From a virus, in the IMG/VR virus record IMGVR_UViG_3300027985_001328, positions 1-41,178 of that record: a DNA stretch of 41,178 bases, one strand, 5' to 3'. This document shows positions 17,906-39,063 of the stretch, piece after piece (within the stretch, counting starts at the first letter, position 1; every line of letters starts with the position of its first letter). Under the pieces are notes generated by a model that worked only from the letters and a program-made list of their open reading frames with translations, ran no database searches and was not told the origin of the DNA. The position numbers and the translations under genes are program-made.

Positions 17906-18463
17906 GTGGCCTCGGATGCCTCCATCGCCTCGGACGCGCTCATACTGCTCGGCCTCACGGCCATCGCCGACCTTGAACAGGACACGCAGTCCGCGCGGGA
18001 CATCCGCGCCGTCTATGAGCAGTGCCGCGACGAGTTGATCGAAGAGCATCCCTGGAGATTCGCCAGGGCCCGCGTGGCCCTGGCGCGTCTCGCGGCGACA
18101 CCGACCTGGGGGTACGCCTACGCTTTCTCTCTGCCTTCCGACTGCATCAAGGTCATTGAGGCCGTGCCCGCCTCTCCGCACGAGATCGAGGGCGGAAAGC
18201 TGCTCTCCGACGAAAAGACGGTCAGCGTTCTTTACGTGCGCCGCGTCAAAGACCCGAACGCCATGCCCCCTCTGTTCCGCGCCGCTCTTGCCGCGAAGCT
18301 GGCCGCGCGCGTGGCCTTCAAACTCAAGGGGCAAAGCGAGGTCGAGCGCATGGAGGGACTCTTCAAGGAACGCATCTCCAAGGCCAAGGCGGCCAACGCC
18401 TTCGAGTCCGAGGACGTCGAGCCGACCCGCCCAGACCTCTTTGTCAGCGCGAGGGAATGGTAA
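17906..18463 (+). CDS. Tail tubular protein A-like (T7 gp11 type)
   Basis: A 185-residue protein starting at GTG 17906 behind GGGGAGGG. 'SDALILLGLTAIADLEQDTQ' at the N-terminus and 'CRDELIEEHPWRFARARVAL' are hallmarks of podovirus tail tubular/gatekeeper proteins, which form the ring joining portal to nozzle. The C-terminus is charged. It is directly followed, with overlap, by the nozzle-type protein, as in T7 (gp11-gp12). Confidence 0.85.
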   Translation: MASDASIASDALILLGLTAIADLEQDTQSARDIRAVYEQCRDELIEEHPWRFARARVALARLAATPTWGYAYAFSLPSDCIKVIEAVPASPHEIEGGKLLSDEKTVSVLYVRRVKDPNAMPPLFRAALAAKLAARVAFKLKGQSEVERMEGLFKERISKAKAANAFESEDVEPTRPDLFVSAREW

Positions 18464-20583
18464 TGCCGCCGCTTTCCCCTATCATCAACGGCTTCACGGG
18501 TGGAGAACTCTCCCCGGACATGGAGGGAAGGACCGACCACGAGAAATACTTCTCGGGATGCCGGAGGCTGCGCAACATGCTGGTACGACCGCACGGAGCG
18601 GCCTTCCGTCGTCCCGGACTGCGATTCATCTCCGAGGCCAAGCACCCCGACAAGGCCGCCCGTCTCATCGCCTTTGACTTCGATTCCACGGATTCGCAGT
18701 CGTACCAGATCGAGATGGGCGACGGGTATCTCCGGTTTTTCAAGGACGGCGGGCAGATTCTGGACGACGAGGACGCGCCTTACGAGATCGCGGCCCCCTG
18801 GACCGAGGAGCAGATTTTCGACGTGCGCTTCGTGCAGACGAACGACGCCGTGTATCTCGCGCATCAGGCCCACCGGCCGCGCAAACTCATCCGTCATGGC
18901 CATGCGGATTGGGAACTCGTGGAACTCGATTTCAGGATCGACGGTTACGACATCGAGATTGTCGACGCCAGCGGAGACGGAAAGAAGAGCGGTAAACAGG
19001 GCGACACCATGACCCTGCCCGCCGGCCGTGAGTTCGACGAGAAGTTCATCGTCAAGGGTCAGAATCCGGACGGGGCCGTGCGCTGGTTCGAGTACCACGG
19101 CTCGGGCTACTGGCAGGCAGCCTCGAATGCCTCCTTGCCCCTGACCTTCAAGGACGCCGACCCGCCCAATTGGGACGGGAACGAGATCGAGAGCATCTAC
19201 GATTCCTCGAACAAGCTGCGCGACGAGTTCTGGGCCGTGCTCGAATCCGACGACTCCAAGCCGGAGAACTGGAAGGACGCTAACTGGCCGGGCGTGGTCG
19301 GCATCTTCGAGGGCAGGTTGTTCTTCGGCCGCACTCCGGACAAACCGCTCGGCTATTGGGGAAGCCGCACCGACCATTTCCTCGATTTTCGGGCGAACAC
19401 CAACAACGACACCTCGGACAACCGCGGCGCACCCTACGACGACGACGCCATTCATAAGGAAATCAGCGGTTCGCGCATGAATCCGCTCTCCTGGTTTGTC
19501 GATCAGGACGACTTGCTTTTCGGCACGAGCGCAAGTGAGGGAAAGATATCGAGCGGCTCCGACACGGACCCGCTTTCCCCGGCTGCCTGCTCGGCCAAAA
19601 GGCAGTCCGGCTACGGCTCCGGCCGCGTGCCCGCGAAGCTCGTGGCGGATGGCGTGCTCTACATCTCGCGCGGCGGGCGACATGTGCGCGAGATGACCTG
19701 GGACATCAACACCTACAAGTACAAGAGCCCGGAAATTTCCATCCTGGCCCGGCACATCACCGAGTCGGGCGTGGTGGACATGGACTATGCCCGCGAGCCG
19801 TCCGGCGTGCTCTGGTGCGCCCTGGGAGACGGCGGGCTGGCCGGATGCACCTACCTGCGCGCGGAGAACGTGGTCGCCTGGCATCTGCACCCCCTGGGGG
19901 GAGATGGATGCGTCGAGTCCGTCTCGGTCATTCCCGGCTCGGCTGGAGACGAACTGTGGTGCCTTGTTCGCCGCACGGTCGGAGGGAAGACCAAGCGCTA
20001 CATCGAGCGCATGGACCCTGAGTTCGTGGAAGGCGCGGAAGACGCGCGCGACGGATTCTTCGTCGATTCCGGTCTGAGCTACGACGGCGAGGAGGAAATC
20101 GTCGAGGTTCCTGGGCTCGACCATCTGGAAGGCGAGACGGTGCAGATTTTGGCCGATGGCGCGGTCATCGCTCCACAATCCGTGCAGGGCGGCAAGGTCA
20201 CGCTGCCTCGCGCGGCAAAGAAGATCCACGTCGGCCTCGGGTATCGTTCCGTGCTGCAGCCCATGCGCTTCGAGTCGGCCGCGCTCGGCGGAACCATGCA
20301 GACCAAACTCAAGCGCGTGATGCGGGCCTCTGTCCGCTTCCGCTCCACGGTCGGCGGCAAGGTGAAGGCCGGAGACGACGACGGCGGGAACTTCGAGCAG
20401 ATTCTGCCGCACTCCCGCAACGCGGCGGCGAACGTGGCTCCTCCTGTGGTGTCGCAAGATCATCGCGTCGACCTGGGCGGCGAGTTCGATACGGACGGTC
20501 TCTTGACCATCGTGCAGGATGCCCCCTTGCCCATGACCATCACCTGTGTCGTGCCCGAGGTCGTGCCCGGAGGTTCGTCGTGA
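18463..20583 (+). CDS. Tail nozzle / tubular protein B-like
   Basis: A 706-residue beta-rich protein beginning MPPLSPIINGFTGGELSPDM, the usual start of podovirus nozzle proteins, followed by 'RRLRNMLVRPHGAAFRRPGL'. It corresponds by position and type to T7 gp12. I choose ATG 18463 (7 bases after GAGGG, overlapping the previous stop as TAATG) over ATG 18457, which is too close to the ribosome site. The C-terminus overlaps the next GTG start. Confidence 0.88.
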   Translation: MPPLSPIINGFTGGELSPDMEGRTDHEKYFSGCRRLRNMLVRPHGAAFRRPGLRFISEAKHPDKAARLIAFDFDSTDSQSYQIEMGDGYLRFFKDGGQILDDEDAPYEIAAPWTEEQIFDVRFVQTNDAVYLAHQAHRPRKLIRHGHADWELVELDFRIDGYDIEIVDASGDGKKSGKQGDTMTLPAGREFDEKFIVKGQNPDGAVRWFEYHGSGYWQAASNASLPLTFKDADPPNWDGNEIESIYDSSNKLRDEFWAVLESDDSKPENWKDANWPGVVGIFEGRLFFGRTPDKPLGYWGSRTDHFLDFRANTNNDTSDNRGAPYDDDAIHKEISGSRMNPLSWFVDQDDLLFGTSASEGKISSGSDTDPLSPAACSAKRQSGYGSGRVPAKLVADGVLYISRGGRHVREMTWDINTYKYKSPEISILARHITESGVVDMDYAREPSGVLWCALGDGGLAGCTYLRAENVVAWHLHPLGGDGCVESVSVIPGSAGDELWCLVRRTVGGKTKRYIERMDPEFVEGAEDARDGFFVDSGLSYDGEEEIVEVPGLDHLEGETVQILADGAVIAPQSVQGGKVTLPRAAKKIHVGLGYRSVLQPMRFESAALGGTMQTKLKRVMRASVRFRSTVGGKVKAGDDDGGNFEQILPHSRNAAANVAPPVVSQDHRVDLGGEFDTDGLLTIVQDAPLPMTITCVVPEVVPGGSS

Positions 20584-21044
20584 GCTTTTCCATCACGCCC
20601 ATGACCGACGAGCACCTCGCGTCCATCCGGCCGGGGGTCTTTTGCCTGCGCTCCCTGGAGGGCTTGGGCAAGTCCTCGCTGGTCGAGGCCGTGGCCGAGT
20701 TCCGCGCGCGCGGCCCCTTCTGGGCAGGCCTCTCCGATGGCGAGGTCGTCGGCGGCGCGGGTCTCATCCCCTATGTTCTCGGCGGAAAGAGAATCGGGCA
20801 GGCCCTGGCCTTCGTGGACCACGAGCGGCTGCAGCGCGCCACGCTGGGCGCGTGCAAGGCGATCCGCCGCGTGCTGGGCAGTTTGATCGAGGAATACAAA
20901 CTGGACGAGTGCGAGGCCTACGTCGCCAAGGGCTTCGACCAGGGATTCCGCTTCGCCGCGCTCTTCGGCTTCCTTCCGGAGTCCGGAGAACATCAGTACC
21001 CGCAGGGCGTTTTCGTGCGCTGCGTGAGGAGGTGTCATGGCTGA
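20580..21044 (+). CDS. Internal virion protein A-like, acetyltransferase-type fold
   Basis: A 154-residue protein starting at GTG overlapping the nozzle stop (GTGA). It is short and GNAT-like: 'FWAGLSDGEVVGGAGLIPYV' would be strands 2-4 and 'YVAKGFDQGFRFAALFGFLP' the C-terminal part. Similar proteins stand at the T7 gp13 position in podoviruses, where they assist ejection-protein assembly. Whether acetyl-CoA is bound is doubtful: no clear Q/RxxGxG/A loop is visible. Confidence 0.65.
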   Translation: MSFSITPMTDEHLASIRPGVFCLRSLEGLGKSSLVEAVAEFRARGPFWAGLSDGEVVGGAGLIPYVLGGKRIGQALAFVDHERLQRATLGACKAIRRVLGSLIEEYKLDECEAYVAKGFDQGFRFAALFGFLPESGEHQYPQGVFVRCVRRCHG

Positions 21045-21672
21045 GACTCTGTTCGGAGCCGCCGCGCTGCCCGCCATCATGTCCGAAGGCATCGTCATCG
21101 CCGAGGCCGTTCCGGCGACGGCCGGGATCATCGGTGCAGGTGGCGCGCTGACGGCCGGTGGGGCTATGACCGCGCTCGGAGCAGGCGGCACGTTGATCGG
21201 AGGAGTGAACGCCTTTTCAAGCAGCCAGCAGCAGCAGGCCATGCTCAAGGCCAACGCCAACCAGGCGCAATACGACGCGGAGCAGGCGCGGCTCATAGGC
21301 GAGCGCAACGCCCTCTCCATTGAGCAGCGCTACGCCTATGAGGCCGGTCTTTCCGAGGCCGAGTTCAAACGCGAGCAGGCGCGAAGGCGCACGCTCCTCG
21401 CGGCCGAGGACGGCGGCGGGCTCTCCGATCTGGAGATCATGTCCGGCCTGGCCGTGCAGCACGAACAGGACTTGCTCTCTCTGGACTACACCGGGCGCAG
21501 TGAGGCCGCGGCGGCACGATACGGCGGCGAGAGTTCCTACAGCAGCCGCATGGCCGAGGCTGGAATCTACGGCATGCAGGCCAGGCGTGCGCGCACGCAG
21601 GGATTTGCCGACACGGCAACCACGCTGCTCGCTGGCGGGGCGAAGACATACCGGAGTTATAGGGGGCTGTGA
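21037..21672 (+). CDS. Internal virion protein B-like (ejection protein, T7 gp14 position)
   Basis: A 211-residue protein. Residues 1-60 are Gly/Ala-rich and hydrophobic ('TAGIIGAGGALTAGGAMTAL'), a segment expected to insert into the outer membrane. The rest is a long Gln/Ala/Glu-rich helix ('KANANQAQYDAEQARLIGER'). This matches ejection proteins that form the channel for DNA entry. It overlaps the preceding gene by 8 bases and the next by ATGA. Confidence 0.8.
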   Translation: MAETLFGAAALPAIMSEGIVIAEAVPATAGIIGAGGALTAGGAMTALGAGGTLIGGVNAFSSSQQQQAMLKANANQAQYDAEQARLIGERNALSIEQRYAYEAGLSEAEFKREQARRRTLLAAEDGGGLSDLEIMSGLAVQHEQDLLSLDYTGRSEAAAARYGGESSYSSRMAEAGIYGMQARRARTQGFADTATTLLAGGAKTYRSYRGL

Positions 21673-23327
21673 TGAAGATTCCCGACTCTTCCGGCCTTGG
21701 TATTGGCGCCCCCATGCTTTCCCCCTCCGAGGGGCCGCGCCTTCCTGTCTCGACGGGAACAGGCATGGGTGTCGCGGGCGACCTGCTCACGACACTGGAC
21801 GCGATATCCTCACCATTCGAGGCGGCGCAGCGCGAGAACCTCTATTCCAAGACCAAGACCGAGTCCTTCTCGCGTTTGAACGAACTTTACTCCTCCCTGG
21901 AAGGGGAACAGGACCCGGACGAGATCGGCCGCAAGTGGAGCGAGGGGGTTGCCAGCATCGAGGAGGAGACGCGCCAAGCTCTCTCCGGCCATGATCGCGT
22001 CGGAGCAGCCTGGGGGAGTTGGTTCGCGGATTCGAGCCTGCGCACGGGCATTGCCGTGAAACGGCTCCAGCGCCAGAAGATCGTCGACCAGGGCCGGGCC
22101 ACGCTCTCGCAGGGTCTTGAAACCTACGTCGGAGCGCTGCCTCTCGCCAAAGAACAGGGAGACATCGACTATCTACGGCAAAGCGCTCTGGCAGACATCG
22201 ACGCCAAGCACAAGGCGGGAATCATCTCCGCGCAGGAAGCGCAGCAGACCGCGGATAAATTCCTGGAATCCACGGACACCTACCTCGTACAACGCGATCT
22301 CTCGGCAAACCCCGTCGCGGCCTTGGCCGCCCTGCGCGATCCGGAGAAGTACCGCTACCTTGACCCCACGCGCCGCATCGCCTTTCAGGCGAAGGCCGAG
22401 GAAAAGGCGGCGGCAGCCATGGACGAGCAGGCCGTCGAATCCGCGTACTCCTGGGCCGACAAGCGCTTCACCGACCATGAGGAGGCCGTGCGGTGGTTTG
22501 AAGACCCGGACAACAACCCGGACGGCCGCAAGCTGTCTCTGGGGCAGCGCAATTCCGTCCTGCGCCTGCTTGGAGCGCGCGCGGCCACGCAGCGCCAGGC
22601 GAGGGCCGAATCCCTGGCCAAGACCGAGCGCCAGGAGCAGGACGCCATTTTCAAGGCCATGCGCAGTGGAAACTTCGAGGAAGCGCAGCGCATCGTCGAC
22701 CGCTCCGAGGTGCTCGACTACGAGTTCCGCTCCAAGATCACGTCCGCCGTTGGTAAGGGCGGGAGCGCCCTCAAGACCGACGCCGGAGTCGAGGCGAAGA
22801 TTATCCAGGGAATCCGCACGGGCGAGATCACGGACAAGAGCCAGATTCTCGCCCTGGAGGGCAACGGGCTCTCGGCAAAGGACGCCGACAAGTACGTTGC
22901 CAAGCTGGAGAAGGCCAGTGTGCCTCCCGGCTTCAACCCCTGGGAGCAGTCTTACAAACTCTACAAGGACACGTTCAAGGACGATCAGGACATGCTCGAC
23001 CTGTTCCCCGAGTTCGTGCGGACCCTGGATTGGTACGCGGAAGAGGAAGACCTCGCGGGCATGCAGGTCTACGACCGCGCCGCCGAGCTCATGGAGCGCA
23101 GCGACCCGAACGCCGTGTTCTTCAAGGGCGACAGGAAGATCAAGGGCATGTTCGAGGGCGGCACGTTCCCTGGACGCCAGCCGCACACGCGCAACAAGGG
23201 CGCAACTCCTGCGGACATACCGCTTTCTGACCGCGAACGCATCTCCACCTTCCTACGCGAGAACAAAAAGCCCGTGAGCGAGGCGAACATCATGGCCGTG
23301 TGGAAGCAGCAGCAGGCGAAGAAATGA
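21669..23327 (+). CDS. Internal virion protein C-like (ejection protein, T7 gp15 position)
   Basis: A 552-residue, nearly all-helical protein with charged coiled coils, without signal peptide. Position between the B-like protein and the giant protein and length near 550-750 correspond to T7 gp15. It would form the periplasmic tunnel. Segments include 'LPLAKEQGDIDYLRQSALAD' and 'FKAMRSGNFEEAQRIVDRSE'. ATGA overlaps on both sides show strict co-translation with its partners. Confidence 0.8.
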   Translation: MMKIPDSSGLGIGAPMLSPSEGPRLPVSTGTGMGVAGDLLTTLDAISSPFEAAQRENLYSKTKTESFSRLNELYSSLEGEQDPDEIGRKWSEGVASIEEETRQALSGHDRVGAAWGSWFADSSLRTGIAVKRLQRQKIVDQGRATLSQGLETYVGALPLAKEQGDIDYLRQSALADIDAKHKAGIISAQEAQQTADKFLESTDTYLVQRDLSANPVAALAALRDPEKYRYLDPTRRIAFQAKAEEKAAAAMDEQAVESAYSWADKRFTDHEEAVRWFEDPDNNPDGRKLSLGQRNSVLRLLGARAATQRQARAESLAKTERQEQDAIFKAMRSGNFEEAQRIVDRSEVLDYEFRSKITSAVGKGGSALKTDAGVEAKIIQGIRTGEITDKSQILALEGNGLSAKDADKYVAKLEKASVPPGFNPWEQSYKLYKDTFKDDQDMLDLFPEFVRTLDWYAEEEDLAGMQVYDRAAELMERSDPNAVFFKGDRKIKGMFEGGTFPGRQPHTRNKGATPADIPLSDRERISTFLRENKKPVSEANIMAVWKQQQAKK

Positions 23328-26300
23328 ACGATCTGTCCCTCTCCGGCGTCGACCTCTCCGCGCTTCCCGACCAGGAAGAAGGCGCTGGAGGTCTCTCCCT
23401 AGACTCCAGGCCCGCGAACGCTCCGGCGGCATCGCGCCCCCTGCCTTCTTCGCTGGTCAGGACCGAGCAGGCCTACGATTGGACCCTCTCTGGCATGAGC
23501 GATGACGACGCGGCCCGAAGGTCGCTTCTCGATACGCTTCCCGACCGCGGGGAGCCGGGCTGGGGCGAGATGATCTCCGACGCCTGGAAGCGCGGCGAGT
23601 CGCAAAAGGAACTCGGCCTGCTGCGCTACCGGCAGGCGGCCGAGACCGGCTTCACGCCTGAAAGTGAATCCGAGGTCGCCCGTATCAAGTCGGGCATGAC
23701 CGCGCGTCCCGAGATCAGCGGTTGGTGGAAGTCTGCGGCCAGGTCGGCGGCGGAAATGGGGCCGGTCATGTGGCACGGCATGAAGGCCTACGCTCGCGGC
23801 GGACTCAAGGGCGCCATGGGATTTGGCGCGATTGCAGCGGCGGCCGGTCAGGCCGGGCCACAGGCCGCGTTCCCCGAGGAGATCGTCACCGTTCCCGCCG
23901 CGGCGGCGCTCGGCTTCGGCATCGTCGGATCGTATGAGTCCAGCGATGAAATATACAAGATCGAGACCGGCCTCCTGCTCGACGAGATGCTCGACTGGAA
24001 GGACGAGAACGGCAAGCAGTTGAATATTGGCATCGCCACCGGAATGGCGGCTGGTGGTGGCATGGTCATATCTCTTCTGGAGTCGGCGCAGATCACGACG
24101 CTGCTCAAGACCATCCCCGGTTCCGAGGCCGTGTTCAAGCAGGCTTCGCGCGCGGCCCTGACCAAGATGCTCCAAAATCCCCGCACCGTGCTGGCCGCGC
24201 TTGGCCGCCGGGCTGGCGAGTACGGCCTGACCGTGGCCGAGGAGACGGGGCAGGAGGTTCTCCAAGAAATGGCCGACGTCGCCTTCGGAGAGGGCGCAAA
24301 GGCGGTGAATAATTATTTATACGGAACGGAACTCGACCCGGCGAGCATCGAGGACATCACCGCGCGCCTCAAGGACACGGCCGTCGAGTCGGTCAAGGCC
24401 TTCACCGTCATGTCCTTGCCTGGGCACGCTGCTCGGGCGGGAATAGAAGTGGGGAAGGTGCAGTCCGGAGCAGGGGAAGTTTCCGTTTCCGCCCCGTCCG
24501 ACCTGGGCCCGGATGTGTCCACGGAAAAGACCTCGGCCGAAGGCGTGGGGGGGGCTGCTGCCGAGGACGTGGCGACGTCCGCCCCTGGAACTGCGCATTC
24601 CCCCGAAACCGCGTTCGAGATGGGGAACATCCCCTGGCAGTCGCCGGAAGCGGCGGCCGAGGTCGCGGCTGTGGATGCCGCGCAGCCTGGCCACCCGGTA
24701 AACTCTTCTCCCGAGGCCGTGGCCGAGGGACGGCGCATCGCCGACGAAGCCGCCTCCGTTCTGCGCAACCATCCGAATATCACCGAGGATCAGGCCTCGG
24801 CAGTCGGCGCGATGTGGTGGCAGTTGGCCACGGTCTGGGCCGAGAACAACGGACGCAAGCCCGAGGAGTGGTATTCCGAGCATCTGGCCGGCGTACGCAT
24901 CTCGCGGCCCGAGGACGTGGCCGGAGGAGAGGTCTTGGCGCAAGCGGCCATGAAGCGCAGCACGGCGGCGAATATCGAGGAGTTCGCGCAATTCGCGCTG
25001 GATAACCCGGACGCCGGGCGCAAGGAACAATATTTCTCCCAGGGCCCGGCCCCGGAGTCACTCGTCGACGGGATCGGCAAGGCGCTCGGCGTGCGTCCCG
25101 AAGGCGCGGAGGTGCGGGTCGCCTCGCATACCATTCGCCACGGACAGACGCGCCACAAGCTCACGGCCGCGGATTGGGCGATCCTGCCCGACACGATGCA
25201 GCGCGCCGACGACGTTTTCCGGCTGGGCCCCGGACCGAAAGCCTACCGAGGCGAGGCCGTGGCCATCGTACAGCACGAGGGAGACCGGGCGCGGGTCATC
25301 ATTGCCGAGGTCGCGCGTACCAAGAATGGTCCAGTTGTCTACGTGGCCAGTTTTTTCGAGGACAGTGCGGCGCGGGTGGGCAAATGGAAGGATGAACACG
25401 TTGCGAAGATAGAGAAGGGCTTGGGTACCGGCGGCGTCTCCGGCCTTAGCCCAAGCCCGTCGCAAGGACGGGACGACAGCCAAGACACCTTCTCTAGGAG
25501 AGAGATAAGCCCGGCTGCATCCGGCGTCAAGGCCCTGTTACAGGGACTGCACGAGCGGATTCCCGGTGCTTCTCGGGCCGAGTTCTTGGCCACCCCGGAA
25601 GAACTGCCCGAACACCTGCGCAAGGCTGACGACGATGTGGGCCGCCTGGCCGCACGCTTCGATCCTTCCAGCGGCACGGCCTACTACTTCCCCGAGGCCA
25701 TCGCTGACGCGGCCGAGGCCGCCCGAGTCTGGCTGCATGAACAGGTCGCACACAACGGCCTGCGCCGTCTGCTGGGAGACGACCGCCTGACGCTCTTCCT
25801 CGAGGACGCGGCGCGCACGCTCGGGATCGACACCGAGGCCGAAGGGTGGACCCTGCAGGCCGAGGAGGCCGTGGCGCGCATGGCCGAGAAGCTGGCCCTT
25901 GACGAGGCCCTGACCGCCCCCGAGGAGGCCGTCTGGCGGCGCGTCGTGTCCGTGGTGCGCGACTTCCTGCGCGAGGCTGGCCTCGTGGATCTCACGGAAG
26001 AGGACATCGAGCGCACCCTGAAAGATGCCGCGCGCCTGCTCATGGCTGGCCAGAAGGAAGGGGAGGCACGGCCGAACGCTCCCAGCGTTCTTTTCCAGTC
26101 TGCGTTTCATGGTTCACCGCATCGCTTTGACCGCTTCACGACACAGATGATGGGAACTGGAGAGGGAATGCAGGCGTTTGGATGGGGAATGTATTTCACT
26201 TCCAAAAAGGAAATAGCAGAATATTATAGAAAATATTTATCAAGAGCAAATTCTATTCAACCTACAGAATTAGGACTTAATGAATTTAAAAAAAGAACGG

Positions 26301-29300
26301 AAGAGTGGAAAGATAGTATCATAAAACGCGGTGAATATCTTAATGATGACTATGCAAAAGAAATCGAGAATGATGTATGGCTTGAGATGCAAGACGAGTG
26401 GGACAGAGAGCCAGAGACATATAATAGCATCAATGATTACAATAACGCAAAAGAAAGGGGATATTTCCAATTAGATAGACATCGCGGTCAACTGTATGAA
26501 GTAGAAATACCGAACGAAGAAAAATTATTCGATTGGGATAAGCCTCTTTCTGAACAAAGTGCATATGTTACTGACAAATTGGAAAACTCTACTCCTATTG
26601 AGAAAAATGGTAGGCAATACATTTTAAAAAAATATATCAATAGTTTTGATGAATACACAGGAGAACCGAACTTTAACGGACGTAGACTATACCGAACAGT
26701 GCTCGCTCCACTGTTTGGATCAGAACGTGCTGCTTCAGAATACCTCAACTCCATCGGCATTCCCGGTCTACGCTACCTTGACGGAATAAGCCGTGAATCT
26801 GGAATCGGGTCGCACAACTACGTCATCTTCGCGGATGATCACGCTCAGATCACGAACACCTTCTACCAGACCGACAAGGCCGCCGTGCAGTTCGTGGATG
26901 AATCCCGCGCGTTGCTGCACCTGTTCGAGTCTGCGGACGTTTCCTCTGCCATCCACGAAACCGGACACATGCTCCGGCGCCAGCTTTCCCCGGACGATCT
27001 CGCCGTGGTCGAAGGGCACTTCGGCGTCGAGAAAGGAGTTTGGGGCGTGGACGAGGAAGAGGCTTTCGCCTCCTCCTTCGAGGCCTACGTCATGCAGGGC
27101 CGTGCGCCCACCCCGCGTCTGGCCCTGGTCTTCGCCAAACTCAAGCAGTGGATGCTCGACATCTACGGCGCCATTTCCGGTACTTCCGTGCGCGTTGCCC
27201 CCGAGATCCGGCGCGTCTTCGACCGCATGCTCACGACTCGGGCCGAGCGTGTCCGACTGCGCATTGCCAACCCGTTCATGGTCGAGGAGGCCGAGCACAC
27301 GCTCGAAAGTCTTGGAGCCCCGCGCCCCGTCTCCGACATCAAGACATACGACGACCTCAGGGCCGAGGCCGAGCGGCGGGCTGACGAGCGGATCGCGCGG
27401 CGCGACCGCGTGGAGATGCGCCGCCTGGAGGCCGCCTGGAAGCGCGAGGCGGAAGACGTGGCCTCCGGACATTCCGTGCAGCGGATCATCGACCACATCG
27501 TCAAGGCGGGCGGCATTCCTTCCGACTGGCTCATGCAGCAATACAGCGCCGACGTCGTGCGCGAGCTCAACCGCAAGCGCATCGGCCTGGTGCGCAAGGA
27601 AGGAAAGGTCTTCCCCGACGAGTTCGTGATGGACATGCGCGCCGCCGGAGAGATCGACCAGGCCATCGAGACGGACGATGAACTCATTTCGGCCATCCTG
27701 GACGCCCCGACCAAGGGAGAAATCAAGGGCGCGGTTCTGGACAGCCTGCGTGCCGGGTATGAGATGGACCGAGCCCAGGGCGGGGCCATGCTCGACAGTT
27801 ACTTCTCCCTGCTCGAAGCCGAGGCGGACATCATGGACGAGCAACTCGGCCGCCGCATGGAGCGTATGCGCGACGAGGCAGACCGCGATGCCTACCGCTA
27901 CAACTTCGGCCGCACGCCTGTTTCCGAAGTCTTGAAGTCCGGCCAGCAGCTCGCGCGCGACCACGAGAAGGCGCAGGCCGAGGTGCGCCGCCTCTTCGAG
28001 GCCGGAGATCGGGCAGGCGCGCGCGATGCTCTTGAAACGCAGCGCATGGTGGCTATCCAACTGCGCGAGGTGGTGCGCGTCCGGCGCGAGGTGCAGGCCA
28101 AACTCAAGAGCGTGAGCGTGCTTGCTCGCCGCAACATGGAGCCCGAGTTCAAAGGGCAGTTCGACGCCTTCCTGGCTCGCTTCGGTCTTGGCCAGGGCAC
28201 GGACGAGCGGCCACAGAATCTCGCCAAGTTTCTCAGGGAGGAGGGCGAAGTCGAGGCGGCGGAAACCGTTTCCGAACGGTTCGCCAACCCATTGTACACA
28301 ATTCCCTGGGGAGCGCTGCGCACCGAGGACTTCCGCGAGATGTTCGAGACCGCGCGGCAGATCGCCTTCCTCGGGGCCCGCGCGGGGAAACTGCTGGCCG
28401 CCAGCCGCGATGCCACGGTGCAGCGTGCCCAGGGAGAGATGGCGCAAAGCATCCTGGGTGCGCTCAAAACGAAACCAGTGCCCGGAGACCACAAACCCGC
28501 CCCACCTTCCGCCAGACGCAAGGGGCCCTTCGCCCGCTTCATGCAGGGTGCGAGCGAGTTCCACGCCACGCTGCTCAAACCCGAGTTCATCTTCCGGGCT
28601 CTGGACGGAGACAAGGAAGGCGCGGTCCACCGCTGGCTTTTCCAGCCGCTCAAGAAGGCCGAGGACGCGGAGCTGCGCCTTGGGGAGTCCGTGCAGAAGA
28701 AACTAGATGAGGTCTTTGCGCCGTTCGCCTCGAAGATGCGCGAGATGCGCACCAAGCGGAACAAGGTCGACGGCGTCGACCGCATGTGGACGCGCGAGGA
28801 AATGATCATGGTCGCCCTGAACTCAGGGAACGAGGGCAACCTCGCGGCCCTGCGCGAGGGATACCTCCTTGAGGACAAGGAAATCGCGGCCATCAACGCC
28901 GCGCTCACGGCCGAGGAAAAGAAAGTGGTCGAGGACGTCTGGAACATCCTCGATTCCTTGTTCCCCGATCTGGACCGCGTGCACCGGGAACTCACCGGGA
29001 AGAAGCTGGCGAAAGTGTCCGGACGATACTTCCCCCTGGCCTTCGACCGCGAACTCTCGCTGCTCGCGGACAAACACGCCTCATTCCGCGAGGAGAGGCT
29101 CAACTCCTTCAACGCCTATCGCTCTCCTGGGACCGAGCACGGCCACCGCATCGAGCGCAAGGGGGGGCGCGAGGCCCCGCTGCTCGACTTCGGCGTCATC
29201 GGCCGCCATGTGGTGCAGACCGTCCACGACATCACCCATTCGATACCCGTGCGCGACGTGAACAAGCTCGCCTCGGCCGAGTCCTTCCGCAACCTCGTAT

Positions 29301-30421
29301 CGCAGACGCACGGCGAGGAGGTCTGGCGGCAGATACGGCCGTGGCTGCAGAACATCGCCGCGCCCCAGCGCGAGCCCGCAAGCAAGATTGAGAAGTGGGT
29401 GGGCCGCGTGCGGCGCAATGCCGCGTATGTGGCCATGGGCATGCGCCTGACCACGGCAACGCAGAACGTGGTCGGTTTCACCCAAACCATTCAGGACATC
29501 GGCTTCATGCCCACCATGCGGGGTATTGGGGCCTACATGACTGATCCATGGCAGGCCGGAGAGTTCGTACGCGACCTCTCGCCCTCCATGAAGGCCCGGC
29601 AGAAGACGTTCGACCGTGACGTGATGGCGGCCTATGGCCGCTTTGATCCTGCCGACATGAAATGGAAGCGGCAGGTTAAAGACTTCTACTTCGCTTTCTT
29701 CGCGTTGATCGACAACGTGGTGGCCTATTCTTCCTGGCTCGGTGCCTACAAACTGGCCATGGACGAGAAGGGAATGGATGAGGCCTCGGCCGTGGAGTAC
29801 GCCGATGGCGTGGTGAGGCGCACACAGCCCACCGGCTCGGCCCTGAACCTGGCCGAGGCGCAGCGCGGGAGTGAACTGCGCAAGTCCCTGACCATGTTCT
29901 ACACCTTTTTCAACGGCACATACAACATGCTGGCCGAGTCGCACCGCAAGTACCTGCGCGATCCGCGCGCCGTGCTCGACCTGGCCCGCGCCTATTGGTG
30001 GATTCTCGTTGTCCCGGCCCTGGTCGGCCAGGTCATCACGGATGGCGAACCTCCGGACAAGGACAAGGCCCTGCGCTGGGCCGGTCGCTCCATAGCCGGG
30101 TATACCCTGGCGACCATCCCCTACGTGCGCGACGTGGCCGGTCCTGTCGTTTCTGGCTTCCGCTACAACGTCTCGCCCGTGGCCGACGCGCCGGCCACGC
30201 TGGTTCGCCTGGGGCAGAAGATCGCGAAGGACGGGGTGAACCTCAACGACGAGGAATGGCGGGCCGGAACAGCGAAGATGCTCACCATGCTCGCAGGGTA
30301 TTGGTGGGGCCTTCCCTCGCGAGCGGCCATCGTCTTCGCCGATGGGGCATTGGACTTCGCGCATGGCAAGACACATGACCCGCGCAGGCTCATCTACGCG
30401 GAACGGAGGAAGAAGAAATGA
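23324..30421 (+). CDS. Giant polyvalent ejection protein with RNase-like, ADP-ribosyltransferase and metalloprotease domains
   Basis: A 2365-residue protein, start ATG 23324 (ATGA overlap). In order: a disordered N-terminus; a Gly/Ala hydrophobic stretch (about 165-205); a BECR/MuF-C-type RNase-like domain (about 580-680, 'SHTIRHGQTRH' to 'VVYVASFF'); an HEQVAH motif (805-810) of polyvalent proteins; an ADP-ribosyltransferase-like domain (about 925-1180: His929 in FHGS, Tyr957 in GWGMYF, then NYVIF); a zincin motif HETGH (1211-1215) with EEEAFASSFE from 1244; then about 1000 helical residues with hydrophobic patches near the end. The C-terminus corresponds to the T7 gp16 role. Inference: the protein enters the host with the DNA and carries effectors that disarm it. 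The ADP-ribosyltransferase part is encoded by AT-rich DNA. Confidence 0.85.
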   Translation: MNDLSLSGVDLSALPDQEEGAGGLSLDSRPANAPAASRPLPSSLVRTEQAYDWTLSGMSDDDAARRSLLDTLPDRGEPGWGEMISDAWKRGESQKELGLLRYRQAAETGFTPESESEVARIKSGMTARPEISGWWKSAARSAAEMGPVMWHGMKAYARGGLKGAMGFGAIAAAAGQAGPQAAFPEEIVTVPAAAALGFGIVGSYESSDEIYKIETGLLLDEMLDWKDENGKQLNIGIATGMAAGGGMVISLLESAQITTLLKTIPGSEAVFKQASRAALTKMLQNPRTVLAALGRRAGEYGLTVAEETGQEVLQEMADVAFGEGAKAVNNYLYGTELDPASIEDITARLKDTAVESVKAFTVMSLPGHAARAGIEVGKVQSGAGEVSVSAPSDLGPDVSTEKTSAEGVGGAAAEDVATSAPGTAHSPETAFEMGNIPWQSPEAAAEVAAVDAAQPGHPVNSSPEAVAEGRRIADEAASVLRNHPNITEDQASAVGAMWWQLATVWAENNGRKPEEWYSEHLAGVRISRPEDVAGGEVLAQAAMKRSTAANIEEFAQFALDNPDAGRKEQYFSQGPAPESLVDGIGKALGVRPEGAEVRVASHTIRHGQTRHKLTAADWAILPDTMQRADDVFRLGPGPKAYRGEAVAIVQHEGDRARVIIAEVARTKNGPVVYVASFFEDSAARVGKWKDEHVAKIEKGLGTGGVSGLSPSPSQGRDDSQDTFSRREISPAASGVKALLQGLHERIPGASRAEFLATPEELPEHLRKADDDVGRLAARFDPSSGTAYYFPEAIADAAEAARVWLHEQVAHNGLRRLLGDDRLTLFLEDAARTLGIDTEAEGWTLQAEEAVARMAEKLALDEALTAPEEAVWRRVVSVVRDFLREAGLVDLTEEDIERTLKDAARLLMAGQKEGEARPNAPSVLFQSAFHGSPHRFDRFTTQMMGTGEGMQAFGWGMYFTSKKEIAEYYRKYLSRANSIQPTELGLNEFKKRTEEWKDSIIKRGEYLNDDYAKEIENDVWLEMQDEWDREPETYNSINDYNNAKERGYFQLDRHRGQLYEVEIPNEEKLFDWDKPLSEQSAYVTDKLENSTPIEKNGRQYILKKYINSFDEYTGEPNFNGRRLYRTVLAPLFGSERAASEYLNSIGIPGLRYLDGISRESGIGSHNYVIFADDHAQITNTFYQTDKAAVQFVDESRALLHLFESADVSSAIHETGHMLRRQLSPDDLAVVEGHFGVEKGVWGVDEEEAFASSFEAYVMQGRAPTPRLALVFAKLKQWMLDIYGAISGTSVRVAPEIRRVFDRMLTTRAERVRLRIANPFMVEEAEHTLESLGAPRPVSDIKTYDDLRAEAERRADERIARRDRVEMRRLEAAWKREAEDVASGHSVQRIIDHIVKAGGIPSDWLMQQYSADVVRELNRKRIGLVRKEGKVFPDEFVMDMRAAGEIDQAIETDDELISAILDAPTKGEIKGAVLDSLRAGYEMDRAQGGAMLDSYFSLLEAEADIMDEQLGRRMERMRDEADRDAYRYNFGRTPVSEVLKSGQQLARDHEKAQAEVRRLFEAGDRAGARDALETQRMVAIQLREVVRVRREVQAKLKSVSVLARRNMEPEFKGQFDAFLARFGLGQGTDERPQNLAKFLREEGEVEAAETVSERFANPLYTIPWGALRTEDFREMFETARQIAFLGARAGKLLAASRDATVQRAQGEMAQSILGALKTKPVPGDHKPAPPSARRKGPFARFMQGASEFHATLLKPEFIFRALDGDKEGAVHRWLFQPLKKAEDAELRLGESVQKKLDEVFAPFASKMREMRTKRNKVDGVDRMWTREEMIMVALNSGNEGNLAALREGYLLEDKEIAAINAALTAEEKKVVEDVWNILDSLFPDLDRVHRELTGKKLAKVSGRYFPLAFDRELSLLADKHASFREERLNSFNAYRSPGTEHGHRIERKGGREAPLLDFGVIGRHVVQTVHDITHSIPVRDVNKLASAESFRNLVSQTHGEEVWRQIRPWLQNIAAPQREPASKIEKWVGRVRRNAAYVAMGMRLTTATQNVVGFTQTIQDIGFMPTMRGIGAYMTDPWQAGEFVRDLSPSMKARQKTFDRDVMAAYGRFDPADMKWKRQVKDFYFAFFALIDNVVAYSSWLGAYKLAMDEKGMDEASAVEYADGVVRRTQPTGSALNLAEAQRGSELRKSLTMFYTFFNGTYNMLAESHRKYLRDPRAVLDLARAYWWILVVPALVGQVITDGEPPDKDKALRWAGRSIAGYTLATIPYVRDVAGPVVSGFRYNVSPVADAPATLVRLGQKIAKDGVNLNDEEWRAGTAKMLTMLAGYWWGLPSRAAIVFADGALDFAHGKTHDPRRLIYAERRKKK
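26105..26760 (+). other. AT-rich segment encoding the ADP-ribosyltransferase-like domain
   Basis: Within the GC-rich giant gene, bases about 26191-26700 switch abruptly to AT-rich DNA with AAA, AAT, ATA, TTA and AGA codons that neighbours avoid. It then returns to the phage's normal composition by about 26740. The frame stays open throughout, and the segment codes for residues about 956-1126. This indicates recent domain transfer from a low-GC donor by in-frame recombination. Confidence 0.88.
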
Positions 30422-31407
30422 CGCTGGATACCAGCAACTCTCGCGTCCAGTACCAGGGGAACGGAGTCACGGTTGAGTGGCCCGTCGACTTCAAGTTTTA
30501 CCTGTCCTCGGATCTCGTTGTGCTCGTCTCCGACGACGACGGGAGTAACGCGGAAACGCTGGTGGAATCGACCGACTACACCGTGACGGGGGGAAGCGGC
30601 AGCACCGGAAGCGTTACCTATCCAATTTCCGGGAGCCCGATGCCCGAGGGGCGCAGCATCACCATCTCGCGCAGCATCGCCATCACGCAGCCCACCGGCT
30701 TTGAAAACATGGACTTGATTGACCTCAGTTTGATCGAGCGCACCTTCGACCGCGGGCGCATGATCGACCAGCAGTTGCAGGAGCAGCTCGACCGCTGCGT
30801 CAAGGCCCCTGTGACGTCACCGGACGCCTTGACCTTCGAGGACATTGAAGGACAGGCCGCGGCTGCAGCCGCGAGCGCGAGCGCGGCGTCGACGAGCGCC
30901 GGGCAGGCCGGGACGGCGCGGGACGCGGCCGTCGTTGCGCAGGGCCTTGCCGAGGACGCCCAGGCGGCGGCAGAAGCGGCGGCCGCAAGCGTCCCGGCAG
31001 ACGCTCTTCGTCCGGGTGACATTGGCAGCATCGTGCAGGCCTACGATGCGGCCATAGTCAAGGCCGACGAGACAAAGGATTTCACCGCCGGGTACACCAT
31101 GACCCCTGTGCAACTCACCGACGCAGCGCCTCCGACCGGTCCCGGAAGCGCGGTCTTTACCGTGGCTCTGGGGCACTTTTTCTACTGGACCCTGGGCGCA
31201 GACAGGACGCTTCCCGCCGGTATCATCCCGAGCGGGAAGTGCGCTCCGGTCTGCATCCTCGTATCCGGTGAGCACGCTCTCGGCATCAGCGCCAGCGACT
31301 ACGACCTGGAAGGTGACGCCGACCCGGCCACGGGAACGCGGCGCTGCTGGGTCTGGCGCGACGGCGCGGAGACGAAGCCGCGCGTGAAGTTCAAGGCGAG
31401 GGCCTAG
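30418..31407 (+). CDS. Tail fibre protein with T7 gp17-type N-terminus
   Basis: A 329-residue protein. Residues 1-130 match the T7 tail fibre N-terminal attachment domain ('QGNGVTVEWPVDFKFYLSSD', 'ITISRSIAITQPTGFENMDL', 'FDRGRMIDQQLQEQLDRCVK'). An Ala-rich coiled-coil shaft follows (about 140-200), then a short beta C-terminal domain. The fibre is short; the receptor-binding part is probably in the next genes. ATGA overlap with the giant gene. Confidence 0.9.
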   Translation: MTLDTSNSRVQYQGNGVTVEWPVDFKFYLSSDLVVLVSDDDGSNAETLVESTDYTVTGGSGSTGSVTYPISGSPMPEGRSITISRSIAITQPTGFENMDLIDLSLIERTFDRGRMIDQQLQEQLDRCVKAPVTSPDALTFEDIEGQAAAAAASASAASTSAGQAGTARDAAVVAQGLAEDAQAAAEAAAASVPADALRPGDIGSIVQAYDAAIVKADETKDFTAGYTMTPVQLTDAAPPTGPGSAVFTVALGHFFYWTLGADRTLPAGIIPSGKCAPVCILVSGEHALGISASDYDLEGDADPATGTRRCWVWRDGAETKPRVKFKARA

Positions 31408-31409
31408 CC

Positions 31410-32873
31410 ATGAGTTACCCGGAGGCCGCGCTGTTCGAGTTCATGCGGGACGACCTGGCAGACGACGGCTTCTGGCTTTACCTGCTGGATTATTCCGTAG
31501 CACTCGATGCTGCCGCGACAACGCATCAGTACTTCACGCGCACCTATACGACATCGGCCACATGCAGCGGTCTCATCGTCTGCAAGCGCGGTAAGCTCGG
31601 TGCAGTCTCCCCGCTGCTGGGAAACAAGATTTATTTCAACGCGAGCGACCAGCTCGTGGCTTTCGGCTCCACAAGCACCGCCGTCTTCCGCGACCCCACG
31701 GCGCATTACATCATCTGCTGGGGGCCTTCCGGAGTGTGGGTCAACGGGGTGGAGGTGATTGCATCCCTCACCACAGCGGACCTCGCATCGGCTGCCATCG
31801 GCTATGATGGGACCAACTACTTCGATGGGGTCATCACCCGCATGGCCGTGTGCTCCGGAACGGACGAGGCTGCGAACTTCACAGGCATCAAGCGTGGCGT
31901 GACCTACGTCAAGGGATACTCCGTGCCATACGGGGCCGCTGGTTTCGATCTGCGATTTGCGAACAGCGGGTCGCTCGGCCTTGACTCATCCGGGAACGGG
32001 AACAACTTCACCCCGCAGGGTTCCCCGGTACAATCCATCGACACTCCGACAAACAACCACTGTACGCTCAATCCATATGACAAGAACGCGAGTCTCACCC
32101 TTACAAACGGAAATACGCGCACGAGCGGGGGAAACCAGTACACTGTCCGGGCTACTTTTGAAGCATTCGATGGACTGTACTTCGAGATGTCCGCCGAAGC
32201 AGTAAACTATTTGAATGCTGGTCTTGGAACCAAGTTAGCACCGCTTGCTGGAGCGCTAACTTCATCGGCATATTTCTACGGAGCATACTACCACTCAGAA
32301 AACAACTTGACTTACATTTGGAAGGCCGGATCGCTGCTGTTTCAGGTGTCAGGTACTGGATGGGGAACGGGTAATGTATGGCGTTTTGCCTACAAGAATG
32401 GAAACTTCTGGATCGGCAATGCATCTGGCTGGCTCAATTCATCCGGGGGCTTCACTGGCGACCCGGCCGCCGGAACAAACCCGACCATGACGGGCATACC
32501 GACCAGCGCATTGTTCCCCATTTTTAACAACCAGTCCGCCACGTTCCTGTTCAAGTCTGGCGCTACTGGATTCACCTATACTGTCCCAACAGGATTCCTT
32601 TCTCCGAGTGCCGTTAACCTCGTAGACGAAACCATCGATACAAGCGGGTCTTTCACCGGGAATGCGTCCACTGACGGTCCCTGCGTATTCACGAACGGAC
32701 CGCTCGACACGCTGACCATCAACGGAAACGCGGTGACGTGGGGCACTCATGCGATCAGGATCGCAGACGGGTTCAAGATCATCACCTCGTCCACGAGCTA
32801 CAACAGCACGGGGACGAACACATGGACCGGAACCACGGACGAACAGCCGTTCAAGTACGCCAACGCACAATAA
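31410..32873 (+). CDS. Receptor-binding/tail protein with lectin- and SPRY-like domains
   Basis: A 487-residue protein rich in Gly, Ser, Thr, Asn and aromatic residues. Residues about 90-190 look like a concanavalin A/LamG-type beta sandwich ('FDGVITRMAVCSGTDEAANF', 'FDLRFANSGSLGLDSSGNGN'). About 205-400 look like a SPRY-like domain preceded by 'PTNNHCTLNPYDKNASLTLT'. Such modules bind carbohydrates in phage tail tips. DNA at about 32150-32620 is less GC-rich than neighbours, fitting fast exchange of host-range genes. Starts 2 bases after the fibre gene. Confidence 0.75.
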   Translation: MSYPEAALFEFMRDDLADDGFWLYLLDYSVALDAAATTHQYFTRTYTTSATCSGLIVCKRGKLGAVSPLLGNKIYFNASDQLVAFGSTSTAVFRDPTAHYIICWGPSGVWVNGVEVIASLTTADLASAAIGYDGTNYFDGVITRMAVCSGTDEAANFTGIKRGVTYVKGYSVPYGAAGFDLRFANSGSLGLDSSGNGNNFTPQGSPVQSIDTPTNNHCTLNPYDKNASLTLTNGNTRTSGGNQYTVRATFEAFDGLYFEMSAEAVNYLNAGLGTKLAPLAGALTSSAYFYGAYYHSENNLTYIWKAGSLLFQVSGTGWGTGNVWRFAYKNGNFWIGNASGWLNSSGGFTGDPAAGTNPTMTGIPTSALFPIFNNQSATFLFKSGATGFTYTVPTGFLSPSAVNLVDETIDTSGSFTGNASTDGPCVFTNGPLDTLTINGNAVTWGTHAIRIADGFKIITSSTSYNSTGTNTWTGTTDEQPFKYANAQ

Positions 32874-35578: not shown

Positions 35579-35635
35579 TCATGCGCTCACCTCCAGCAGG
35601 TTGCCGCGCAGGATGGAGTTGACGGGGGCGCTCAT
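35579..35635 (-). CDS. Possible 18-residue peptide behind the radical SAM gene
   Basis: MSAPVNSILRGNLLEVSA, with ATGA overlap both to the radical SAM stop and to the start of the alternative 88-residue minus-strand frame. The double coupling is suggestive, but the length is marginal and the ribosome site poor. It may be only a reinitiation bridge. Confidence 0.3.
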   Translation of the reverse strand: MSAPVNSILRGNLLEVSA

Positions 35636-36534
35636 GCGGCCCATCCCTTGATCACGCGGTATTCTGTCCAAGTCAGGTTGTGGTAGAGGTGGCGATTGCA
35701 CCACCAGGAAAATTGCCTTTGTTCATCGGTTGGATGGGCCGCGTTCTCAAAATCCCGGTAAGGCTGCGCGAAGGCGTTCACGTTGATGGAACGCAGGAAC
35801 ATCACGCGCTGCAAGGCGTCCTCGATGTCCTGGACCAGCACGTAGCAGAAGAAGCGTGAGGGCTTCGCGCCGTGTTTTCGGAGCAGTTCAACCGCGCGCC
35901 GGACGTGCGGGATTTGTTCCGCTCTGTCGCAGGCAAGGCGAAGCGGCCTGTACCATTTCAGTCTGGCAAGAAGGCGGGCCACGCCCTCGTCGGCGGCGAT
36001 GATCCGCGCGTCAAGCCCCTGGTTGAAGTCCACGCGGTAGGGCATCTCGGCAAGTCGCTCTATCTCGCGCAATCCGTGCTCGTGGGCCAGGACGTTGTTG
36101 TCCATGAAAACGATGTTCCGTGTGTCATGGCGGGCGATCTCTTCGACCGTCGAGCAGGCGCGGATTGCCCCCTCCTTGCGAGGAACCACGCACCAGGGGC
36201 ACGCCCGGATGCAGCCGCGCGTGAGGAAGCCGACGGCGTAGTCGCAACCCGGATAGAGCGAGTAATCCGGCCGGATGCCCTCTATCTCGGTGGGGAGAGC
36301 GGATGAAACGTCATATCCCGTCCCGCCCATCACGGTCTGCGGCGGGAGGTAGGGGCTCTCTGGCGTGAAGGTGAATACCTTCGAGGAGTACACGACATCA
36401 TACAGCGCGGCATTCAGGGGGAGGAACGGCTCTACCCTGTCGCCCCTGGCCTTGTGCCACGCGGAGAGTTTCATCAACGCGAGGTTTGGGAACGCCGTGG
36501 CGTCCGAGTCGTGCAGGCCGATGTAAGCGCTCAT
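35632..36534 (-). CDS. Phage radical SAM protein
   Basis: A 300-residue protein with the radical SAM iron-sulfur motif C-x3-C-x2-C: Cys108, Cys112 and Cys115 in 'TRGCIRACPWCVVP'. The N-terminus ('FPNLALMKLSAWHKARGDRV') resembles the degenerate cobalamin-type domain seen before some radical SAM barrels. 'IVFMDNNVLA', 'VDFNQGLDAR' and 'YVLVQDIEDA' are likely barrel strands. I recognise the overall family from phages and prophages, but its substrate is unknown. It starts one base after the methyltransferase stop, with GGGAGG, so co-expression with a DNA methylase is built in. Oxygen-labile cofactor chemistry fits an anaerobic host. Confidence 0.88.
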   Translation of the reverse strand: MSAYIGLHDSDATAFPNLALMKLSAWHKARGDRVEPFLPLNAALYDVVYSSKVFTFTPESPYLPPQTVMGGTGYDVSSALPTEIEGIRPDYSLYPGCDYAVGFLTRGCIRACPWCVVPRKEGAIRACSTVEEIARHDTRNIVFMDNNVLAHEHGLREIERLAEMPYRVDFNQGLDARIIAADEGVARLLARLKWYRPLRLACDRAEQIPHVRRAVELLRKHGAKPSRFFCYVLVQDIEDALQRVMFLRSINVNAFAQPYRDFENAAHPTDEQRQFSWWCNRHLYHNLTWTEYRVIKGWAA

Positions 36535-38416: not shown

Positions 38417-39063
38417 GCGGGCAGCCTCTTGAACTCGACGGCCCAGACCCATTCGTTCTTGTCCCAGCCGTGTCCGCGATCCGCGTTGATGGAGTCCCAG
38501 AGGGTGCGGAAAGACTCGACAGCAGTCAGCAGGGAGAAGTTATCATGACCGGAAAGGTAATCGAGGTATCCAAATCCTGGTTCATCTTCCCACCCATGGT
38601 CGAAATCAACTCCCTCGGCCATCGCGTCCTCTTCGCTGATGTCCTGCAGGCGCTGCACGCGCACGGACACGACTTCGAGGTTGATGCGCGAGGCCCAGCG
38701 CGGCATATGGATGGAGGGCGTCCAGCGCTCATAGTTGTAGAGCATGGGGTTATAGTCGTCTGGGGCGGATAACTCTGCCTGGGTTGCGTCCGCTGCGTAG
38801 ATTATTACCCATCTATTCGGCCCAGAAGAGTGCCTGTCTGGGGGGAATGGGCAGAAACTCTCACGCACCCACAGCCTGTCGCCGGGCTGGCCATAGGGGC
38901 ACGGATAGGGACCGAATCTCCCCCCGTGGCCGTCAGGCCTGACGAGGTATCCGTTGCCGATCATCTCAAACGGAGGCTTCACGATCCGCCGCGTCTGCGT
39001 CTTGCGACCTTCGAGGATCGCCCGCACCATGGGGCCGGAAAAGAGGATGGGACGTTCAGCCAT
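38413..39063 (-). CDS. ASCH-like phage protein
   Basis: A 216-residue protein beginning MAERPILFSGPMVRAILEGR then KTQTRRIVKP, the very common opening of phage ASCH-type proteins (fold related to PUA domains, thought to bind nucleic acid or modified bases). 'GDRLWVRESF' and the ending 'WVWAVEFKRL' fit as well. The role in phages is unknown; next to a DNA methylase, reading or handling modified nucleotides is a possibility. ATG 39063 has GGGAGGTG. Confidence 0.75.
   Translation of the reverse strand: MAERPILFSGPMVRAILEGRKTQTRRIVKPPFEMIGNGYLVRPDGHGGRFGPYPCPYGQPGDRLWVRESFCPFPPDRHSSGPNRWVIIYAADATQAELSAPDDYNPMLYNYERWTPSIHMPRWASRINLEVVSVRVQRLQDISEEDAMAEGVDFDHGWEDEPGFGYLDYLSGHDNFSLLTAVESFRTLWDSINADRGHGWDKNEWVWAVEFKRLPA

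Follow-up and report, generated by a model that had tools for sequence, protein, structure and literature searches.

A 2365-residue phage protein with a predicted enzyme cargo, a conserved junction zincin and a putative ejection-type chassis

The window, a 41,178-base virus record from IMG/VR analysed over its whole length, carries a giant gene among late virion genes, with internal virion protein genes before it and a tail fibre gene after it (Table 1). The 2365-residue reading frame that an earlier note had proposed for this DNA is real, its translation containing no internal stop; the list of open reading frames begins it at a GTG 24 bases upstream, which gives 2373 aa. Further upstream lie, in order, the genes for small terminase (phrog_309), large terminase, head-tail adaptor, a protease-like protein and the major head protein, the last separated from the tail tube gene by unmatched small genes. 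The same order round the giant gene was found in vir555, Carin1, AF, BPP-1, PfDIW6, HU1 and others, judged by gene size and, where annotated, by name; several of the compared genes carry no annotation beyond 'hypothetical', and in Usaquen the record begins at the giant gene. This synteny with podophages of the BPP-1/AF/Carin1 type bears out the gp16 position claimed by the note and places the gene in the gp16/IVP-D slot.

The gene at the gp15 position could not be placed in a family: PHROG (E <= 0.01) and Pfam (E <= 1) searches with its product were negative, and no lysozyme domain was detected. In AF, HU1, Carin1 and BPP-1 this slot carries a 'structural lysozyme/endolysin', and vir555 and two Vibrio phages that were inspected have a similarly short gene there. 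After the tail fibre gene, positions 31410-32873 encode a 487-aa protein that matches the 'virion structural protein' family phrog_19943 (E 8e-14).

Table 1. Features of the giant gene and its neighbours (positions in the window; residues of the 2365-aa protein)
Feature	Residues	Position	Strand	Basis
Tail tubular (gp11-like) protein		17906..18463	+	phrog_394, E 1.1e-46
Tail nozzle (gp12-like) protein		18457..20583	+	phrog_376, E 1.2e-168
Small gene in the nozzle/internal virion protein interval		20580..21044	+	phrog_4177, E 1.1e-5
Internal virion protein (gp14 position)		21037..21672	+	phrog_418 'internal virion protein', E 4.4e-5
552-aa protein, gp15/structural-lysozyme position		21669..23327	+	weak match to vir555 counterpart, E 3e-4, 9-sequence set
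Giant polyvalent/ejection-type protein, 2365 aa		23324..30421	+	ORF and translation; phrog_9880, E 5.7e-156, residues 1177-2361
N-terminal segment	161-378	23804..24457	+	phrog_28077, E 1.1e-13; Gly/Ala-rich by eye
Probable PBECR3-type RNase (RHxxxRH ... VASFF)	578-697	25055..25414	+	profiles, AF2
Zincin 1, HExxxH type (HEQVAH 805-810, E848)	730-905	25511..26038	+	alignment, AF2, IrrE match
ART domain (H929, Y957, N1165, D1171/D1172)	919-1186	26078..26881	+	Pfam, alignment, structure
Zincin 2 (HETGH 1211-1215, E1246)	1187-1309	26882..27250	+	alignment, motif count
Helical chassis	1310-2365	27251..30418	+	AF2 pLDDT 82.7, pTM 0.73
Tail fibre/spike type protein (N-terminal part)		30418..31407	+	phrog_1640 'tail protein', E 3.6e-21

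From the N to the C terminus the giant protein consists of an N-terminal segment, a probable PBECR3-type RNase, an HExxxH zincin (zincin 1), an ART-fold domain, an HExxH zincin (zincin 2) and a helical C terminus of 1,056 residues, here called the chassis. All motifs named in the earlier note were found in their places, including FHGS at residues 928-931, GWGMYF at 953-958 and EEEAF at 1244-1248. The ART-like domain and the HETGH zincin with its downstream EEEAF, both proposed there, stood up well, the HEQVAH motif could be identified as a second zincin of the HExxxH type, and the BECR/MuF-C-like domain found weaker support. The per-domain structure prediction named beforehand as a check matched the folds of the ART and zincin 1 and modelled a helical chassis. 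H929 and Y957, suggested for mutagenesis, are the His and Tyr of the ART; E1212, listed with them, is the general base of zincin 2 and lies outside the ART. With the ART and two zincins well supported and the PBECR domain probable, the protein has the multi-enzyme composition of a phage-type polyvalent protein. Its N-terminal segment gave phmmer matches in 10 of 95 ORFs, thus in some relatives only, and in no 19-residue stretch of residues 161-378 did the hydropathy exceed 1.5.

Assignment of the RNase domain relied on profile comparisons and modelling. Pfam PBECR3 matched the protein weakly (E 0.19), and hhalign with a three-sequence profile (L031 and two relatives) returned E 0.0024 with a probability of 12%, L031 having been taken as a PBECR3 carrier from its motifs because the Pfam tally names no members. 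The region scored highest of 32 windows of the protein (31 evenly spaced and the chosen one), and none of 100 shuffles reached its score, by a narrow margin (23.8 versus 22.9). AF2 predicted the expected helix and four strands (block pLDDT 53-88) in a region modelled without relatives, the PBECR rows having been removed beforehand because MAFFT had aligned them with the ART. We regard residues about 578-697 as a probable PBECR3-type RNase domain; the least secure parts of our description are this domain, the ART's third catalytic residue, which is displaced, and the gp16 homology of the chassis.

The HEQVAH motif is very probably part of a real zincin, which recurs as a pair with the ART, because eight ORFs align with it upstream of the same ART. 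Of 79 ART-bearing ORFs, these eight carry a zincin motif in which HE is followed by two or three residues, an H and mostly xG, as around HEQVAH, and which precedes the ART by 118-163 aa; they were chosen by motif, and two of them read HExxH. H805, E806, H810 and E848, the residues of an HExxxH zincin, are aligned with the eight IMG/VR ORFs over residues 730-905, and all 9 rows have Glu in the column of E848. A phrog_873 match spans residues 777-1006. The AF2 model has strands followed by helices, with pLDDT 77-94 for about residues 725-854 and 55-75 just after, and IrrE, itself a zincin, aligned with residues 738-860 in two rows (VIA-align Z 7.2-7.3). A single-sequence IMG/VR scan with the PBECR-zincin 1 block confirmed no relatives, and with tblastn at E <= 1 the two domains recovered none from phages.

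The match of the next domain to Pfam ART-PolyVal (PF18760; E 3.1e-4) reached 21.9 bits and lies below the gathering score of 31.2, so we describe the domain as having an ART fold of the HYD2/ART-PolyVal type and do not count it as a curated Pfam hit. All 12 rows of the alignment have H929 and Y957, which lie on strands in the AF2 model, and the G-x-GEG block is kept. In the tail NYVIFADD (NYVIF-A-DD) the Asp does not directly follow the aromatic residue, a feature shared with 12 of 79 relatives; in the other 67 it does, the counts being biased upward by scan patterns that overlap the tail and Tyr motifs. Activity of the window ART is therefore not assured.

The effector model (residues 545-1320, 20 sequences) had a mean pLDDT of 69.7 and a pTM of 0.39; the ART blocks reached pLDDT 58-92 except for a low-confidence insertion (model residues 432-509). 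When this model was compared with 999 chains by VIA-align, residues 919-1183 gave the best row, 9k3a_B (Z 10.5, 156 residues, 4.7 A). The other 49 rows listed comprised 47 tankyrase, PARP1 or other ART-fold chains (Z 7.1-8.5) and the two IrrE rows; two of the ART-fold rows were poor fits (over 16 A), and VIA-align warns that Z values of 7 to 8 are common by chance. We judge the ART fold persuasive because the structural rows agree, not because of Z alone. In Foldseek, neither the effector model nor the chassis model had a PDB match at E <= 0.001; the effector list was headed by unrelated curved sheets, and VIA-align alone was informative.

ARTs of this kind are common: an IMG/VR scan with the ART confirmed at least 531 relatives among at least 600 candidate stretches, of which 80 were kept. 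In the 79 ART-bearing ORFs, which come from 79 new loci (the 80th, with E = 2, was dropped), a zincin 2 match (E < 1e-3) occurs in 22 and a chassis match, at the same threshold, in 15; zincin 2 follows the ART in 18.

ARTs of the window type also occur in other settings. Tunturi_5, a Tunturiibacter jumbo phage, encodes a 1489-aa 'NUDIX hydrolase' (L007:2610-7079) with three ART-type [FY]HG[ST] motifs, of which those at residues 434 and 808 match the window ART by profile. Gene 5 of Sulfitobacter phage phiGT1 (L098:4918-6081), two genes before the scaffold gene, encodes a 387-aa protein with a window-type ART (25% identity, NFVVFDD end); this small head-gene version would be useful for biochemistry. 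The giant 'methyltransferase' of Rhodobacteraceae phage LS06-2018-MD07 (L099) combines an HEFTH zincin-like motif, a window-type ART and, by eye, a methyltransferase-like stretch.

Zincin 2 lies at the junction of cargo and chassis. H1211, E1212, H1215, E1246, E1253 and Y1255 are invariant in all 15 proteins of an alignment running from the zincin to the C terminus, in which identity to the window protein is 19-29%. In the AF2 model the HExxH and the later Glu both lie on helices (block pLDDT 44-85), the arrangement of a zincin metallopeptidase. Of 94 relatives, 91 have an HExxH at a distance of 1050-1600 aa from the C-terminal end, compared with 1.1% of residue-shuffled copies; the three relatives lacking it are 5'-open fragments. 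The set is enriched for zincins, since the downstream Glu motif is overlapped by one of the two patterns used in the scan (HExxH itself is in neither pattern). The 94 consist of 14 named phages and of 80 sequences kept from an IMG/VR profile scan with at least 563 confirmed relatives among at least 600 candidate stretches, Tunturi_5 and the window being left out. In Bbp10, residues 700-1000, which hold zincin 2, are given as a seed of the CLCA_X metalloprotease family in the available text of PMC3650047.

We consider it quite unlikely that the enzyme-like domains are catalytically dead and work in the virion as structural or binding modules, as stated for the MuF PBECR of phage Mu. The weak PBECR match and the displaced third ART residue would agree with such a role, and the Mu domain is called inactive in the accessible part of Iyer et al. 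(PMC5512222). Against it, the predicted metal ligands are intact in both zincins, and H929, Y957 and the G-x-GEG block persist in the ART, which suggests that chemistry is under selection.

The C terminus had been described beforehand as helical and ejection-type. The AF2 model (50 sequences) is indeed almost entirely helical; a gp16 fold is more weakly supported than the other parts. The core proteins compared with it were those of PDB 9jyy, 7eyb, 9vvp and 8vb2. Among 880 chains, VIA-align ranked highest 9vvp_W (phage E1004 core, Z 7.4), 7eyb_I (Z 7.2) and 9jyy_I (T7 core, Z 7.1), all three phage core proteins, over 196-223 residues. We take 7eyb to be a T7 core structure, and its chain I, from the residue numbering, to be gp16. 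The T7-type matches come from chassis residues about 1750-2113. The phiM1 ejectosome was also listed (Z 5.9, 214 residues), and talin/vinculin rows were tied in Z (6.8-6.9) with about 90 residues aligned. Since Z values under about 13 may be due to chance for helical folds, the match to core proteins is suggestive; with the top rows at Z < 8, below the confident range, the model hints at a possible homology of the chassis to T7 gp16.

The same Z values, and the absence of any sequence similarity of the chassis to PDB chains in profile searches, would equally suit an unrelated helical polyvalent module that is delivered in another way or only lines the capsid interior. We hold this to be unlikely, as the top three of 880 chains are all phage core proteins, the phiM1 ejectosome appears as well and the gene sits where gp16/IVP-D genes do. 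Among predicted viral proteins (BFVD) the chassis had 103 matches at E <= 0.001; the names in the best 50 of these include polyvalent-associated, MuF-C, N-acetyltransferase, ART-PolyVal, nuclease and restriction-enzyme proteins, as expected for a single carrier bearing many cargoes.

Comparison of the relatives supports such a division into carrier and cargo. In 50,697 phage records tblastn found 43 with a match; coverage of the query stayed below 80% in all of them, and the shared part was mainly the C-terminal half. In 61 complete IMG/VR genes the length from HExxH to the end was 1254 +/- 58 aa (1172-1401), and the part upstream of HExxH measured 1190 +/- 454 aa (628-2318); the window protein has 1154 and 1210 aa, respectively. 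Within 76 complete proteins, chassis similarity was detected in 5700 of 5700 ordered pairs (BLASTP E <= 1e-5). Cargo similarity, compared without the first 380 residues, was seen in 3303 of the 5700 pairs, and in 941 at >= 50% coverage. Mean cargo coverage climbs from 0.18 to 0.74 with chassis identity. The cargo therefore turns over faster than the chassis and is not freely exchanged. The pair Usaquen-CP2 was rejected as an example of a cargo swap, because the short upstream part of Usaquen may reflect the point at which its record was opened.

Pfam families (E <= 1e-3) were tallied in 75 upstream regions (the window, 13 named phages and 61 IMG/VR sequences; Mel-JY33 and Tunturi_5 left out). 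LPD22 was present in 69 regions and ART-PolyVal in 20; PBECR1/3/5, MuF_C, GNAT, GGDEF, RadC, Polbeta, LPD1/3/5/23 and a few others occurred in one to five regions each. The window protein differs in that no LPD22 was detected in its upstream region. Bbp10 of Bordetella phage BPP-1 and its counterparts in AF, HU1, PfDIW6, CP2, SR18, Carin1 and vir555 share zincin 2 and the chassis with it in the same slot (22-29% identity) and differ in the cargo upstream; only the vir555 protein matches the window ART by profile, and that of SR18 has a bare YHGT motif. A single-sequence IMG/VR scan with the whole protein confirmed no relatives, an NCBIfam scan gave no match, and PDB sequence profile searches returned nothing useful. 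Vir555 (L002) had the highest query coverage among the relatives (57%, tblastn); its listed host is archaeal (Methanomicrobiales), a label that may be doubtful, and the other named hosts are bacterial.

The note had also suggested that the domain order and the substrates were undescribed for this phage group. The class is already described: the polyvalent proteins of Iyer et al. (2017, PMC5512222) likewise unite PBECR-like, ART and zincin domains in one late-gene protein with mosaic architectures, the HExxxH subtype of zincin included. Only the order PBECR-HExxxH zincin-ART-HExxH zincin-chassis, not seen in the available text of that paper, may be new. The same text predicts that polyvalent proteins enter with the DNA and are processed by their own zincins. 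Relatives have received other labels: in the accessible parts of the papers, a 2,986-aa Bbp10 relative is called putatively lysis-related (PMC9239159) and another phage's counterpart possibly structural (PMC8951688).

An architectural parallel is the virion RNA polymerase of N4 (gp50), in which, according to the part of a preprint that was available (PMC12633501), an N-terminal domain and the polymerase are followed by a C1 domain with HExxH and a helical C2 domain of about 1,125 residues. That protein is packaged unprocessed and ejected, is invisible in virion maps, and its C-terminal domain (CTD) represses the polymerase (PMC12633501). The window protein has the same order of N-terminal domain, enzyme, zincin and helical CTD. 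Its cargo differs, as Pfam scans found no RNA polymerase family in it. Homology of the chassis to the N4 CTD was tested by sequence and not found: hhalign with a seven-sequence Schitoviridae profile gave a best E of 0.086-0.18 at a probability below 1%. N4 is therefore kept as an architectural parallel only. A study of phiRIO-1 is said to have described internal virion proteins as hosts of cytoplasm-bound domains, with the N4 polymerase inside an IVP-D homolog; if this is right, the general concept is already in print.

T7 gp16, at the same gene position, carries an N-terminal transglycosylase, and its N-terminal part stays periplasmic (PMC8954989, available text); Pfam scans detected no transglycosylase in the window protein. 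In the solved pre-ejectosome of cyanophage A4, a domain inside the phage core (9k3a chain B) superposes on the window ART at 14% identity, and no sequence profile match was found between the two.

Earlier papers already cover the class, the type of ART, the zincins and the notion of injection. A search by title and abstract, with subscription papers mostly outside it, found neither the 2365-aa protein nor its domain order. As far as these searches go, the new points are the four-domain cargo order, the pairing of a HEQVAH zincin with an ART, and a fixed zincin-chassis unit with variable cargo.

We read the window protein as a phage-type polyvalent protein on an ejection-protein chassis, with an N4 vRNAP-like order and another cargo, and think it quite likely that it is a podophage ejection protein doubling as an effector carrier. 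It would be packed in the internal core with the proteins of the gp14 and gp15 positions and exit through the tail nozzle, the chassis assisting DNA passage across the inner membrane. The enzyme block would arrive early in the cytoplasm, the compartment that holds NAD+ and RNA, on which the ART and PBECR domains are expected to act; there the ART may modify a host protein and the RNase may cut host or defence RNA. Counting against a carrier, the Carin1 record marks other tail proteins as structurally identified and not the giant protein, although virion maps fail to show N4 vRNAP as well. A literature search found no virion proteomics or activity data for the window protein or its relatives.

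Because the N-terminal part of T7 gp16 is periplasmic and NAD+ and RNA are cytoplasmic, an N-terminal cargo needs either release or N4-like threading. The simplest proposal would make zincin 2 the release step: it would most likely process the protein and separate cargo from chassis. Alternatively, the zincin 2 domain may regulate the cargo, as the CTD of N4 vRNAP does. The wider proposition is tentative, and we would not yet put it forward as probable: the junction zincin would be a built-in release protease, so that the standard chassis of a podophage family cuts off a fused effector block after entry into the host or, in the manner of the N4 CTD, keeps the block inactive up to that point, and the gp16-type protein would be a general delivery carrier.

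Zincins could also act earlier. In a structural or maturation protein they would process virion proteins at assembly while the other domains act late in the producing cell, a reading with which the late-gene context agrees, as does the pre-packaging self-processing proposed for P1 DdrB in the available text of PMC5512222. We regard it as very unlikely, since N4 vRNAP, whose zincin occupies the corresponding position, enters the virion unprocessed and is ejected in the account given by the preprint (PMC12633501), and a late-active ART and RNase would presumably endanger virion production.

If the carrier reading is right, it bears on early effectors, which arrive with the DNA and are hard to find because they are hidden in proteins annotated as structural or hypothetical. 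An HExxH zincin followed by a helical chassis of ~1,100 residues in the gp16 slot would be a marker by which effector cargo could be read from podophage genomes, and it allows a concrete test of the way in which these phages bring enzymes into the cell. A published survey reports ARTs in only 3% of podoviruses (PMC9503650, available text); in the group selected here the figure is 20 of 75 upstream regions. Of the new points, the conserved zincin between cargo and chassis lends itself best to testing; should zincin 2 release the cargo, the chassis would be a natural protein-delivery scaffold.

Elsewhere in the window, the minus strand carries a gene for a 638-aa DNA methyltransferase (36536-38452; phrog_116, E 4.9e-104), adjoined by that for a radical SAM protein (35632-36534; phrog_9298, E 2.7e-82). 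The two are possible DNA-modification or anti-restriction genes.
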